Below are positions 8,048 to 44,200 of a DNA stretch of 64,000 nucleotides, in pieces. Made by a program: the position numbers and the translations under genes. How positions within the stretch are numbered: position 1 is the stretch's first letter; each line of letters opens with the position of its first letter. Source of the DNA: an uncultured Phycisphaerae bacterium (GTDB lineage: Bacteria; Planctomycetota; Phycisphaerae; UBA1845; Fen-1342); assembly GCA_937928595.1 (NCBI GenBank), contig CALGJV010000013.1, forward strand, positions 1 through 64,000, read 5' to 3'. Under the pieces are notes generated by a model. That model was not told the DNA's origin, made no database searches, and saw only the letters and a program-made list of their open reading frames with translations.

Positions 8048-9613
8048 ATGGGATTCCGGATGAAGGTCGTACTGGCGGGCGTGCTCGCCCTGGTGACTTT
8101 GGCCGGCGTGATGTTCGCGCTGTACGTGCAGGATTCGCGCGCGGCGGTCCAGAAGCAGTACGTGGAGAAGGCTCGCAGCGTGGTGCTGACGGTCGAGTCG
8201 GCCCGCGAGGAGATGGCCAAGAAGTGGCAGTCCGGGATCTTCTCGGCCGAGCAGTTGCGCGAGTGGGCCGCCGCCGGCCGGGTGGACAAGGTGCTCCAAG
8301 CCGTGCCGGTCGTGACGGCCTGGCACGCCGCGATGGCCAAGGCGGAGGAAGGCGGCTATCAGTTCCGCGTGCCGAAGTTCCAGCCGCGTAACCCGAAGAA
8401 CATGCCGGACGAGACCGAGAGCCGCGTGCTGAAGATGTTCGAATCCGGCACGGCCACCGAGCACTACGAAATTGACCTGGCCGCGAACGCGATCCGGTAC
8501 TTTCGTCCCATCCGGCTGACCGAGGACTGCCTGCTGTGCCACGGCGACCCCACGCAGTCGGCCACGTTGTGGGGCAACGACCAGGGACTGGATCCGACCG
8601 GCGCAAAAATGGAGAACTGGAAAGCCGGCGAGGTCCACGGGGCGTTCGAGGTGGTCCAGTCGCTGTCGGCGGCCGACCGGGCGCTGGCGGCCACGCTGTG
8701 GCGCGGCACGGGCATCGTCGCGGCGCTGGTCGGGCTGAGCGCCGTCGCGCTGTACCTGGTGGTGACGCGCGTGGTCGTGCGGAATCTGATCGCGCCGGTG
8801 CAGCAGATCGCGGGCGAGCTGGACGAGGGGGCCGAGCAGGTCCACGAGGCGTCGGCGCAGGTGGCCGGCGCGGCGAACATGCTCGCGCAGGGCGCGAGCG
8901 ATCAGGCGGCGGCGCTCCAGCAGGCCAGCAGCTCGCTGGAACAGGTGGCCTCGATGAGCCGCGACAACGCCCGGAACGCGGAGGACGTGAACCGGCTGAG
9001 CGGCGCGGCGCGGGAGACGGCGCAGGGCTGCGACCGGACCATGCAGCGGCTCGGCGTGGCGATGACGGCCATCAACGAGTCGGCCGGCGCCATTCACAAG
9101 ATCATCAAGGTGATCGAGGAGATCGCGTTCCAGACGAACCTCCTGGCGCTGAACGCGGCGGTCGAGGCGGCGCGGGCGGGCGACCACGGCAAGGGCTTCG
9201 CGGTCGTCGCGCAGGAGGTGCGTTCGCTGGCGCAGCGGGCGGCGCAGGCCGCCGGCGAAACAACCGGGCTGATCGAGGCGTCGGTGGCCCGCGCGAGAGA
9301 GGGCAGCCGGGTCGCGACGGAGGTCGCGTCGGGCATGTCGTCCATCGTGACGCACGTCACGCAGGTCTCGGACCTCGTCGGCAACATCTCCGCTGCCAGC
9401 CGCGACCAGGCCGAGGCGGTCGACCAGCTCAACAAGGCGGTCGCCCAGCTTAACACCGTCACGCAGCAGAACGCGTCGGCGTCCGAGGAATCGGCCTCCG
9501 CGTCGCAGCAGCTCTCCGCGCAGGCCGAGAGCGTGCGGAACACCGTCACGCGGTTGATGCAGGTGGCCGGCGCCCCCCCCGGACGCGGGAGTGAGGCGAA
9601 CCCGCGGGCGTGA
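8048..9613 (+). CDS. Methyl-accepting chemotaxis-type sensor with periplasmic c-type heme domain
   Basis: The 521-residue product has a membrane segment at residues 5-26, a periplasmic domain, and a second membrane segment near 217-240. A long coiled-coil signalling region follows, with the conserved hairpin tip [20 protein letters not shown]. The periplasmic part carries C161-L-L-C164-H165, the covalent heme c attachment motif, in a region resembling the DUF3365/Tll0287-like sensor fold. Redox potential or a gaseous ligand is therefore a plausible signal. A canonical HAMP motif is not obvious. No other che gene is in the window, so it works with a distant array or a non-chemotaxis pathway. 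Weak purines precede the ATG. Confidence 0.9.
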
Positions 9614-9698
9614 GGCACGGCGGCTTGCGAGACCAGCGGCGGCTGATGTAAGGCACCGCGGCGGTTCTCGGCCGCGCGCCGTGCCGACCTTGCGCCCT

Positions 9699-9860
9699 GA
9701 CGGCCGCCGTCCGAGCCCCGGCCGCAAGGCCGGGGTCCATCACTCGCCGCCCTGGACGAAACCCGGAGCTTGCGCTCCGGGCTCGGACGGCCGTCGCCCT
9801 GCCACCCTCCGGGCTCGGACGGCCGTCGCCCTGCCCAGCCTCCAGGTTCGGATGCCGCGC
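9699..9860. repeat. REP-like palindromic repeat modules
   Basis: The 507-bp gap between the sensor gene and efp holds several copies of one module: an 8-bp stem with a TTGC loop, then CTCGGACGGC. Copy 1 (9699-9735) is inverted, with stem CCCCGGCC/GGCCGGGG. Copy 2 (9762-9803) has stem CCCGGAGC/GCTCCGGG. A half copy at 9807-9835 repeats 9775-9803 exactly (29 bp, 32-bp period). A decayed copy starts near 9841. Stem bases differ between copies but remain paired. The rest of the gap shows a TATACT hexamer at 10020-10025 and nothing coding. Confidence 0.7.
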
Positions 9861-10120
9861 GCCGTGCCGGGCCGCGGCAACAAGGCTGCACGGCGCGGCG
9901 TGCCGGGCGCGGTGACGAGGTTGCCCGCTCACAAGGTGACAAAGAACCCGCCCCGTCCCCCGCCTGCGGCCGTTCGGCGGGGACCGCGGGCCCCCTCGCG
10001 GCGGGGCGGGGCGCCCGGCTATACTATCCCGTTTCAAGGGCGGCTGCGGGCGTCGTCGGGCGGGCGTGTTCCCGGTCCGCGGTGGTCGCGGCGGAAGCGG
10101 TTGGCGGCAAACGGTGCAGC

Positions 10121-10684
10121 ATGATCAAGGCGAGCGAACTGAAAAAGGGGAAGGTCGTTCAGCACGAGGGCGGCCTGTACTCGGTGAGCGACATCCAGCG
10201 GGTGTCCAAGGGGAACTGGCGGAGCTACCTCCAGGCCAAGTTCAAGTCGTTGAAGGACGGCCGGGTGATCGACGTCCGCCTGTCGGTGGACGATCGGATC
10301 GAGACGCCGTTCGTGGACACGAAGCCGTACCAGTACCTGTACAAGGACGGGGACAGCTTCGTGCTGATGGATGAGCAGACGTACGACCAGATCACGGTGT
10401 CGGCGGACGTGATGGGGGAGGCCGAATTGTATCTGCGCGGCAACGAGACGGTGACGGTGCAGATGATCGAGGGCAAGATCGTCGCGATCGAGCTGCCGAA
10501 CACGGTGCAGCTCAAGGTGGTCGACGCGCCGCCGGTCGTAAAGGGCGCGACCGCGACGAACCAGAGCAAGGAAGCGACGCTCGAGACCGGGCTGCGCGTG
10601 CGGGTCCCGCCGTTCATCGAGATCGGCGAGGAGCTGCGCATCGACACGCGGACGGGCGAGTACCTCGAACGGGCCAAGGAGTGA
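10121..10684 (+). CDS. efp: Translation elongation factor P
   Basis: EF-P binds between the P and E sites of stalled ribosomes and speeds peptide bond formation at polyproline stretches. The 187-residue product is full length, with the KOW-like N-terminal domain ([13 protein letters not shown]) and two OB-like domains ending in [19 protein letters not shown]. The loop tip reads [10 protein letters not shown], with K30 in the position that is modified in many bacteria. The surrounding SKGNW differs from the common PGKGGA, so its modification is uncertain. No strong ribosome-binding site precedes ATG 10121. A TATACT at 10020-10025 could be the -10 of a transcript with a leader of roughly 90 nt. 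Nothing was seen in 10685-10808. Confidence 0.95.
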
Positions 10685-40785: not shown

Positions 40786-42402
40786 ATGGGAAAGAAGCAG
40801 AGGACGCTGCGCGCGCCGATGTTGCTGGCGCTGGCGGCGGGTTGCGTGCTGGGGCTGACGCTCGGCGGTTGCCCGGCCGTGACCGACGGGAACACGATCA
40901 CAGATGGAACCGGCCTGACGGGGCCGCAAGGAAACACCAGCAGCACGGGCAACAACGGCTCGACCGGAGTGACCAGTGCGACCGGGGTCACCGGCGCGAC
41001 CGGGGCTACGGGTGCGCAGGGGCCGCAAGGTCCGGCCGGCGCGCCCGGCGAGACCGGGCCTGCCGGCCCGCCGGGCGAGACCGGTCCGGCCGGCGCCCAA
41101 GGCGAGGTGGGTCCGCAGGGTGAGACCGGCCCGCAAGGCGAGATGGGCCCGCCGGGGCCGCAGGGTCCGGCCGGTCCGCAGGGCGAGCCGGGGCCGATGG
41201 GGCCGGCAGGTCCAGCGGGCCCCATGGGTCCCATGGGGCCGATGGGGCCAGTGGGCCCGATGGGGCCGCAAGGGCCGGAAGGGCCGCCCGGCCCGCCGGG
41301 CTCGTCGGCGGACATCCAGGCGGGTCCGGGGCTCATGCGGGAGGGCGATGAGCTGTCGCTCGACACGGAGTTCACCGACGGACGGTACTGGACGCTGGGC
41401 GGGAACTTCACCGCGGCGACGCAGGTGCTGGGCACGCTGACCACGCAAGCGATCGAGCTGATCGTGGACGGCGTGCGTGCGCTGCGGATCGAGCCGAGCG
41501 CTCTCAGTCCGAACCTGATCGCCGGGTTCGCGGGCAATGCCGCGGACGCCGGCTTGTCCGGCGTGGCCGTCCTGGGCGGCGGAGCGGCGAGCGACGGCGC
41601 GGGCGGCAGCGGTGTGAACCGCGTGACAGATGACTACGGAGTGATCGTCGGCGGCCTCGGGAACCGGGCGGGCAGCGACAATGGCGACCCGGACGACGCG
41701 CCGTTCGCGGCGGTCCTGGGCGGAACGGGCAACCGCGCGGAAGGCGCCAACAGCGTCGTGCTGGGCGGTGCCGACAACCGCGCCAGCGGACCGTTCAGCC
41801 TCGCGGCCGGCCGGCGGGCGCGGGCGCAACACACCGGTTCTTTCGTGTGGGCGGACACGCTGGACGAGGACTTCGGCTCGGTGCGGGACAACGAGTTCCG
41901 CGTGCGGGCCGGCGGCGGCGCGACCTTCCAGCTCGGCGGCGTGAGCAAGTCGGTGTCGCTGCGGGCGACCGGCAACCGCCTGATCGACACGAGTGTGAAC
42001 GCGTTCCTCAGCCTCGGCGGGACGTGGACCAATGCCTGCGACCGCACGCTCAAGGACAACTTCGAGCAGGTCGACGGGCGGGTCGTGCTCGACCAGCTCG
42101 CGCGGGTGCCCATTCTGACCTGGAATTACAAGTCGGAGGACACACACATTCGGCACATGGGCCCGATGGCCCAGGACTTCTTTGGCACGTTCGGCGTGGG
42201 CTATGACGACACGTCGATCACGACCGTTGACGCCAACGGCGTCGCGCTGGCGGCGATCAAGGGGCTGCACCAGATCGTCAAGGAGCTGGACGCGCGGCTG
42301 ACGGTGCAGCAGCAGCAACTGACGCAGTTGCAGGCCCAGTTCGCGGCGCTCCAGGCCCGCGTGGAGGCGCTGGAAGCCGCGGCGAAGGCCGCGCCGAAGT
42401 AG
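40786..42402 (+). CDS. Collagen-like lipoprotein with YadA-like head and S74 chaperone domain
   Basis: The 538-residue product has a signal peptide with lipobox LGGC (C29). A collagen-like stretch of about 35 unbroken Gly-X-Y triplets runs from residue 67 to 170 ([19 protein letters not shown] style). Head repeats like those of trimeric YadA adhesins follow at about 275-370 ([14 protein letters not shown]), then an endosialidase-type S74 intramolecular chaperone near 417-510 ([35 protein letters not shown]). A coiled coil ([16 protein letters not shown]) ends it. The architecture predicts a trimeric surface fibre. S74 domains often self-cleave after assembly. AAAGGAG lies seven bases before ATG. 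Confidence 0.92.
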
Positions 42403-42757: not shown

Positions 42758-44200
42758 ATGCGCGCAGTCTGCGTCTATTGTTTATGGGCCGCAGTGGTGC
42801 TGGCGGGGCGGGCGACGGGTCAGACCTGCACCATGCAATGGTCCAACCTGACCCCGACACCCAACCTGAGCGGCATTGTCCACGCCTTGACGGTGCACGA
42901 CGAGGATGCGACCGGACCCAAGCGGCAGTCGCTCTATGTGGGCGGCACGTTCCTGAACGCGGGGGGGCTTTCGGCGTCGCGGATCGCACGCTGGGACGGG
43001 TCGGCGTGGTACGCACTGGGGCTCGGCATCACCGGCGCCTCGGTGTTCTCGTTGCAGGAGTATGACGAGGACGGCACGGGCCCGAACAAGGCCCACCTGT
43101 TCGTGGGAGGCAACTTCACCCAGGCCGGCGGATTCGAGGCTTACAACATCGCCCGCTGGAACGGCACGGGCTGGACGGCCGTTGGAATCGGCCTCAACGG
43201 CCCCGCGTACGCGATGGTCGTCTACGACGAGGACGGCACCGGGCCCCAGAAGCCCAACCTGATCGTCGGCGGGCTCTTCACGCTGGCGGGCGGTTCGCCC
43301 GCGAACCGGATCGCCCGCTGGAACGGATCGGCCTGGTCGGCGCTGGGAGATGGGTTGAACGGCTATTGCGCCGCACTGGCCGTCTTCGACGAGGACGGCA
43401 CCGGCCCGCAGAAGCCGAACATGTTCGCGGGGGGCGGGTTCACGGTCGCCGGGGCCGGCATCGCCAGTCACGTGGCGCGCTGGAACGGCTCGGCGTGGTC
43501 CTCGCTGGTGGTCTTTCCGAACCCGGACGGCGTGGACGGCACGGTGTACAGTCTGCTGGCCGCCGACGACGACGGCAGCGGCCCGCGGCCGACCGCGTTG
43601 TTTGTGGGAGGCGCGTTCGGGCAGGCGGGCGGGATCACCGCGAGCAACATCGCGCGCTGGACGGGCACGCAGTGGACGACGGTCGGCAGCGGGCTGAACG
43701 CCCCGCCCTTCGCGATGTCCGTCTTCGATCCGGACGACGGCGGGTCGCAGCAGCCCGCCTTGTACGTGGCGGGTTCGTTCACGCAGGCGGGAGGGAGCTC
43801 GGCCAACCGCGTCGCACGGTGGAACGGGAGTACCTGGGCCGGGCTCGACACCGGCACGAACGGCGAGGTGCGGGCGACCGCAGTTTACGATGCCGACGGC
43901 ACGGGCCCCGACTTGTCGGGCCTCTACACCGGCGGGCAGTTCACGACCGCCGGCACGCGTACCGTCACCAACCTGGCACGCTGGATGTGCCTCCCGCCGG
44001 AGGGCCGCCCGGGCGACCTGAACTGCGACAACGTGGTGAACTTCGACGACATCGATCCGTTTGTGTTGGCGCTGTCGGGTCAGGCGGCGTACCAGGCCGC
44101 ATACCCTGCCTGTCGCTACCTGAACGCGGACTGCAACAACGACGGAGTTGTGGACTTCAATGATATCGACCCGTTCGTCGCGCTCCTCAGCGGCGGTTGA
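42758..44200 (+). CDS. Secreted seven-repeat beta-propeller protein with dockerin-like C-terminus
   Basis: A signal peptide (VYCLWAAVVLAGRATG) precedes seven repeats of about 50-55 residues with the core GGxFxxAGG...IARWNGSAW and linkers like YDEDGTGPQKPN. This suggests a seven-bladed propeller. Residues about 428-480 hold two Ca-binding dockerin-type loops, GDLNCDNVVNFDDIDPF and ADCNNDGVVDFNDIDPF, a frequent C-terminal module in Planctomycetota exported proteins. GGGAGG lies nine bases before ATG 42758. Function is unknown; surface display or attachment is plausible. Confidence 0.9.
   Translation: MRAVCVYCLWAAVVLAGRATGQTCTMQWSNLTPTPNLSGIVHALTVHDEDATGPKRQSLYVGGTFLNAGGLSASRIARWDGSAWYALGLGITGASVFSLQEYDEDGTGPNKAHLFVGGNFTQAGGFEAYNIARWNGTGWTAVGIGLNGPAYAMVVYDEDGTGPQKPNLIVGGLFTLAGGSPANRIARWNGSAWSALGDGLNGYCAALAVFDEDGTGPQKPNMFAGGGFTVAGAGIASHVARWNGSAWSSLVVFPNPDGVDGTVYSLLAADDDGSGPRPTALFVGGAFGQAGGITASNIARWTGTQWTTVGSGLNAPPFAMSVFDPDDGGSQQPALYVAGSFTQAGGSSANRVARWNGSTWAGLDTGTNGEVRATAVYDADGTGPDLSGLYTGGQFTTAGTRTVTNLARWMCLPPEGRPGDLNCDNVVNFDDIDPFVLALSGQAAYQAAYPACRYLNADCNNDGVVDFNDIDPFVALLSGG

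Follow-up and report, generated by a model that had tools for sequence, protein, structure and literature searches.

A dispersed family of REPIN-like hairpin pairs in a Phycisphaerae genome, probably mobilized by a class 3 HUH/Y1 protein

The inverted pair of hairpins at positions 9706–9791 of the window (the whole 64,000-nt stretch of DNA analysed here) is one copy of a REPIN-like family dispersed through the genome that contains it (G000), and we consider it probable that this family was moved by a HUH/Y1 protein of class 3. REP-type small repeats are thought to be moved around bacterial genomes by a transposase that cuts single strands, and the foot of the REPs of Pseudomonas fluorescens SBW25 is of the GT[AG]G type. 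The units described here have a different frame, in which a 5′ CNGA(G) foot is followed by a hairpin with arms of 8 nt and a GCNA loop. They lie mostly outside predicted genes, and relatives have the same frame, built with different stems, around class 3 genes.

The locus lies between a chemotaxis receptor gene (8048–9613, MCPsignal), which ends 93 nt before the window copy, and the elongation factor P gene (10121–10684), with secA further on. As an earlier note on this DNA had described, two full hairpins with different, fully paired stems are present, both perfect and of 8 bp: hairpin B at 9716–9735, CCCCGGCC[GCAA]GGCCGGGG, and hairpin A at 9762–9781, CCCGGAGC[TTGC]GCTCCGGG. The TTGC loop and CTCGGACGGC tail ascribed to both are shared only when the first hairpin is read on the minus strand, where its tail is 9706–9715, the tail of the second being 9782–9791 on the plus strand; the units thus form an inverted pair with the tails outward, an arrangement that the earlier description did not contain. 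The 36-nt arms of this pair are 78% complementary and stand 24 nt apart. The features of the locus are listed below, with bit scores from covariance models of the whole dimer (R1) and of the single unit (R2).

9706..9737, plus (foot orientation): REP unit B, with foot GCCGTCCGAG at 9706–9715, stem 9716–9723 / 9728–9735 and loop GCAA at 9724–9727; R2 52 bits, in training set
9738..9759, no strand: linker, the third short arm in the minus-strand RNA fold
9760..9791, minus (foot orientation): REP unit A, with foot GCCGTCCGAG from 9791 down to 9782, stem 9774–9781 / 9762–9769 and loop TTGC on the plus strand, GCAA on the minus strand; R2 53 bits, in training set
9706..9791, minus: whole A-linker-B dimer, REPIN-like, feet outward; R1 99.3 bits, in training set
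9775..9803, plus: half unit (3′ arm of hairpin A, foot and flank)
9807..9835, plus: second half unit, exact copy 32 nt on
9840..9868, plus: third half unit, 72% identical, with a tail TTCGGATGCCGCGC that resembles the A foot of other copies
9671..9686 and 9854..9869, plus: 16-nt direct repeat GCCGCGCGCCGTGCCG, either side of the region

The 29-bp half copy with a 32-bp period was correctly read in the earlier note, the 29-mer being exact at both places, and local slippage or template switching is the probable origin of this array. The decayed copy said to follow it also exists, but it ends in TTCGGATGCCGCGC, as does the A foot of several copies elsewhere, so that it may represent the original outer end of the element rather than a decayed copy. 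The tail sequence CTCGGACGGC at up to one mismatch is unremarkable in the window (28 matches against 23.7 expected), and its exact matches number three, all at the locus. In the linker alignment, TTYCGTCCGGGTCGGCGACCGATGGA or a near version of it is common to the long-linker copies. The composite as a whole does stand out. Fold predictions for the window copy gave −65.2 kcal/mol (z −5.8) for the minus-strand RNA, in which the two feet can pair and close an outer stem around three arms, while the DNA fold (z −4.5) prefers a single long hairpin.

Dispersal was assessed in the G000 assembly, a 3.69-Mb draft of 46 contigs that is 97.86% complete. A pattern search with three mismatches gave totals near background (60 + 57 matches against 51 + 45 in a reversed control), with only its 3 exact and 10 one-mismatch matches looking clearly informative, and covariance models were therefore used instead. 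Twelve composites could be aligned and gave R1, which has 40 matches in G000 at E ≤ 1, among them several that repeat a site on its other strand, and 15 distinct sites at E ≤ 1.4e-10; three of these sites lie outside the training set, with 62.6–77.5 bits and E from 1.4e-10 to 4.7e-14. The single-unit model R2, trained on 23 units, gave at least 51 matches at E ≤ 1 and at least 47 units at E ≤ 0.02 among the best 150 of 11353 first-look candidates scored in G000. Since the model searches scored the best 109 or 150 such candidates per genome, all these counts are lower bounds. Of our sequence sets, A1 contains composite C24 and A2 does not, and A5 omits one B half of C7 that carries a deletion. 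The earlier note had proposed dispersed, REP-like modules, to be sought genome-wide and with a covariance model, and had named a purely local duplication as the outcome that would speak against them; the further copies dispose of that outcome.

Thirty of the 47 units belong to 15 feet-outward A/B dimers, whose linkers occur in long, short and odd-length forms, and the other 17 are single or otherwise arranged; two units lie near contig ends (C6 and C12). No predicted ORF was overlapped at 18 of 22 R1 sites examined, the window itself being predicted 83% coding by our home-made ORF caller. The gene neighbours at these 18 extragenic sites are divergent in five cases, convergent in four, codirectional in eight and one-sided in one. 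When other genome contigs were scanned (a set that perhaps leaves G000 outside), the B hairpin appeared in three stretches, two in a Phycisphaeraceae MAG (Planctomycetota) and one in a Coriobacteriaceae MAG, with the A hairpin there missing or unpaired. Units are concentrated on contigs C4 and C25 (11 and 9 of 47, against 2.05 and 2.01 expected from length), an excess that the dimers inflate.

The constant parts of the unit are its foot and loop. Among the 23 aligned halves of G000, the loop is GC[ACG]A in all 23 and the foot CNGA in 21 (19 CCGA and 2 CGGA), the two remaining feet being CCGG and ACGA. Both window units have CCGA (window foot CCGAG), and a GTAG or GTGG foot is absent from them. 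Paired stem changes had been taken in the earlier note to imply selection on structure. The difference between the A and B stems is by itself no proof of this, because the two belong to separate unit types and each type keeps its own stem genome-wide, and covariation within G000 is modest, with both-sided changes in 2 of 22 pairs. Across genera, the case that stems differ yet stay paired looks stronger. In A6, a gapless alignment of nineteen single units from eight genera, the C.GA foot is invariant and the GCNA loop occurs in 16 of 19, with both-sided changes in 7 of 8 stem pairs, 99.3% of cells paired and a score that falls from 0.865 to 0.05–0.17 in a sliding-partner control. The class 3 rows of A6 (12 used) came out of a search for hairpins with a CNGA foot and a perfect stem of at least 7, in which neither the loop nor the 8-nt length was prescribed, and 5-nt-loop units of G015 were left out; the pairing of 99.3% and the covariation are inflated, because rows were picked for folding.

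Since the rows had partly been picked for folding, the frame was tested again with no pairing requirement, by searching around 24 class 3 and 61 other Y1 genes for CNGAG + n nt + GCNA + n nt. With n = 8, the class 3 flanks contain 45 such places, and 21 of them have at least 7 of 8 pairs, representing 9 stems at 4 loci. For n = 5, 6, 7, 9, 10 and 11 there are 11–28 places in these flanks, none nearly paired, and at the 61 other Y1 loci the 24 places with n = 8 likewise include none nearly paired. Units of the CNGAG-8-GCNA-8 form with mismatched arms occur at the class 3 loci L169, L170, L172, L174, L179 and L184, one example being CCCGGAGC/GCGACGGG, whose 5′ arm is that of window unit A; full pairing is thus not universal.

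The class 3 proteins share a consensus, LTWTTYGTWLHGDERGSVD, and a Y----Q motif, and the protein on contig C119 of G016 ends before that motif. Together with the feet, these genes fit the 'class 3' TnpA-Y1 described by Quentin et al. (2018, PMC6006769), for which a Y----Q motif, a CnGA foot, several flanking hairpins and prominence in Planctomycetes are reported. Profile matches of at least 130 bits, a cut of our own, number 25 and fall in 18 of 41 genomes; 24 came with a locus and make up the class 3 locus set. Stop codons were seen within three of the 25 genes (TAG in two and TGA in one; G010, G016 C119 and G014). Among nine aligned members, the NCBIfam IS200 family was matched by all nine and the RAYT family by seven at E ≤ 0.001; in the member for which bit scores were displayed, these were 20.6 against a cut-off of 55 and 19.4 against a cut-off of 80. 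A class 3 protein also matches a solved transposase chain, 2f4f, weakly (E 0.00037).

Hairpins with a CNGA foot flank class 3 genes in the relatives G001, G016, G021 and G039, and their density is 0.518 per kb near class 3 genes (41 hairpins, 8 of 24 loci) against 0.105 per kb near other Y1 genes (20 hairpins, 15 of 61 loci). For GT[AG]G feet the order is reversed, 0.076 against 0.388 per kb, each foot being the commonest of those tested in its own setting. Loops of the CNGA-footed hairpins are GCNA or GCCAA in 28 of 41 near class 3 genes, 11 of them from one array in G015, and in 3 of 20 near other Y1 genes. In G039, G021, G001 and G016, low-scoring Y1 genes lie between such hairpins, the loop in G016 being TCCT. 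On contigs C93, C206, C214 and C254 of G001, units of the class 3 type stand in tandem arrays with 32–76 nt spacing, which recall the 32-nt half-copy array of the window.

The dimer model was also compared with class 3 presence across genomes: among the 41 drafts including G000, none other of the same genus, R1 has matches in nine (G000 among them), class 3 genes occur in 18 and both in five, with no clear association, and a stem-free model (R3) was therefore built. At E ≤ 0.01, R3 has 44 matches in 9 of the 24 class 3 loci and 5 matches in 4 of the 61 others; like A6, it was partly built from hairpins picked for folding and is partly circular, while three of the nine positive loci (in G010, G011 and G015) gave no training rows, and the other 15 class 3 loci have no match at this threshold. 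At least two R3 matches and a strong class 3 match coincide in 11 genomes, against 3 with R3 alone, 7 with class 3 alone and 20 with neither (p = 0.0023, phylogeny ignored). Without the 8 training genomes, the same comparison gives 5, 1, 7 and 20 (p = 0.016, phylogeny again ignored). The association weakens to p = 0.046 if four weaker class 3-like matches (95–107 bits) are counted as positive; when a single R3 match suffices, it has p = 0.005, weakening to p = 0.044 without training genomes. The exceptions run both ways, since G000, G005 and G019 have at least two R3 matches and lack a strong class 3 match, and 7 of the 18 genomes with such a match have fewer than two R3 matches.

In TnpA-REP systems, the foot is needed for cutting, and in some of them particular loop positions and a mismatch-free stem outweigh the stem sequence (PMC8266576). 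By analogy, we picture the class 3 protein as binding single-stranded DNA in its folded form at the foot and loop, probably recognizing these rather than the sequence of the stem; it would then cleave close to the foot and join the strand to a new site, with no duplication of the target. Such a protein is the likely mobilizer of the A/B units. A class 3 gene was not found in the G000 draft by profile search (the best score, 31.8 bits, belongs to a RAYT gene on contig C8), so the pairing of this protein with the G000 family is drawn by analogy with other genera, and the copies are probably left over from earlier activity.

The family appears to be a further member of a kind of hairpin already known for class 3. 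Like the hairpins of Quentin et al. (PMC6006769), it has a 5′ CnGA foot at the hairpin base and dispersed copies; unlike them, it lacks a gene found in its genome, and its units are mostly A/B heterodimers. The GCNA loop and the fixed 8-nt arm seen here are not mentioned for class 3 in the available part of that paper, which proposes class 3 Y1 proteins as possible intermediates between IS200-type and REP transposases and calls for further experiments. With the SBW25 REPINs (Bertels and Rainey 2011, PMC3116915) the family shares inverted REPs with a spacer, dispersal, extragenic location and folding as one structure, and it differs from them in its CNGA foot, its two different stems per dimer and the lack of a cognate RAYT found in G000. 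It also resembles the GTAG- and CGTC-tagged REPs (Di Nocera et al. 2013, PMC3733652), short tagged palindromes that form dimers, including heterodimers, and are reported in Planctomycetes; the tag here is neither GTAG nor CGTC.

A rather unlikely alternative is that the units are inner parts of MITEs, which a cut-and-paste transposase would mobilize through their outer inverted repeats, with the hairpins as passengers. This is suggested by G021, where 40 stretches (L220–L259) were read and an element of about 160 bp with inverted ends of about 21 bp (GGGTGTAGTCCAAAACTGTGG and its complement) was found, both ends being present around the dimer in 17 of the 40; the remainder run into contig ends, carry altered ends or lack ends altogether. 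The target duplication in G021 fits best at 8 bp; in 15 copies taken together, 84 of 120 bases agree, and two of the copies are perfect. The permutation count was 0 of 10000 at that chosen offset, and it was 0 of 2000 in a scan corrected for having picked the offset, for which the 15 copies were not quite the same. Given the inverted ends and decayed 8-bp duplications, a good part of the G021 copies apparently spread as MITEs, a second route in that genome, and their core is similar to that of our family. In G000 these marks were not detected: by eye, the copies share no outer inverted repeat outside the feet, which are themselves inverted, and the 15 composites show no clear duplication in a test of limited power (132, 183, 126 and 187 of 2000 permutations at k = 4, 6, 8 and 10). 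Units also occur singly, as tandem halves and in dimers whose linkers vary in length, which speaks against the MITE reading as well. In G021, L245 and partly L246, L248 and L251 have different inverted ends and another core by eye.

The earlier note had suggested a RAYT-type transposase as mobilizer and a search for a linked Y1/RAYT gene. It was right about the kind of protein, a Y1 protein, and wrong in the detail. The sole Y1_Tnp match in G000 (C8:53754–53987) belongs to a RAYT that narrowly passes the cut-off of the NCBIfam REP transposase family (81.8 against 80 bits), which speaks for this class 2 RAYT as mobilizer of the A/B units. Its flanks carry other palindromes, GCGTCGGAC..GTCCGACGC, with exact matches in G000 only there, and CNGA feet go with class 3 genes and GT[AG]G feet with other Y1 genes, so we regard it as quite improbable as the mobilizer. 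A second dispersed family, GTAG-CGTCCGAC-loop-GTCGGACG, with sites on C1, C3, C9, C10, C26, C27, C30 and other contigs (L197–L219), suits this RAYT better and is likely to represent REPs of the class 2 RAYT type. At up to three mismatches it gives 25 forward and 26 reverse matches against 0 and 1 in a reversed control, many sites being counted on both strands and the two RAYT-flanking palindromes being included, and GTAG feet were found in 9 of the 23 feet read. By eye, the sequence common to L052 (C26) and L054 (C7) extends past the A foot and takes in a GTAG-type palindrome, so that the two REP families there adjoin as a mosaic.

It is very unlikely that the copies are cis-acting RNA elements (terminators, protectors of mRNA 3′ ends or structured RNAs) under host selection, with a secondary likeness to REPs. 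The RNA fold is very stable and the window copy lies just downstream of the receptor gene, yet Rfam at the gathering threshold gave no match at the element (in the window, it matched three tRNAs only), no intrinsic terminator (a G+C hairpin followed by a T run) was found in 9500–10200, the neighbours of the extragenic sites have mixed orientations, and the same frame flanks Y1 genes in relatives. Least credible is the proposal that the compensating stem changes come from hairpin self-templating (template switching) instead of selection: the perfect stems, the half-copy array and the exchanged foot of the window copy have that look, and the constant foot, loop and 8-nt arms across genera are left unexplained by it, although both processes may act.

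With a class 3 protein as the preferred mobilizer, the CNGAG foot, variable 8-nt arms and GCNA loop amount to a well-defined substrate prediction open to in vitro testing. A wider and distinctly more tentative reading is that class 3 REP units are modular recognition cassettes independent of stem sequence: with the CNGA foot and the GCNA loop read by the HUH protein across a constant spacing of 8 nt, the stem would be free to drift. On this reading, MITEs have taken up such dimers as their cores, perhaps repeatedly, and with two routes, single-strand HUH and cut-and-paste, such repeats may outlive their own transposase, as in G000. The orphan state of the G000 family and the MITE-nested copies of its relative bear on how repeats persist without a transposase of their own. 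A literature search found no later study of class 3 repeats and no title naming REPINs within MITEs, and we claim nothing wider from it.

Elsewhere in the window, the stretches 40997–41301 and 43048–43953 show short-period repeats of collagen-like appearance and six 81-nt repeats mostly spaced at 162 nt.
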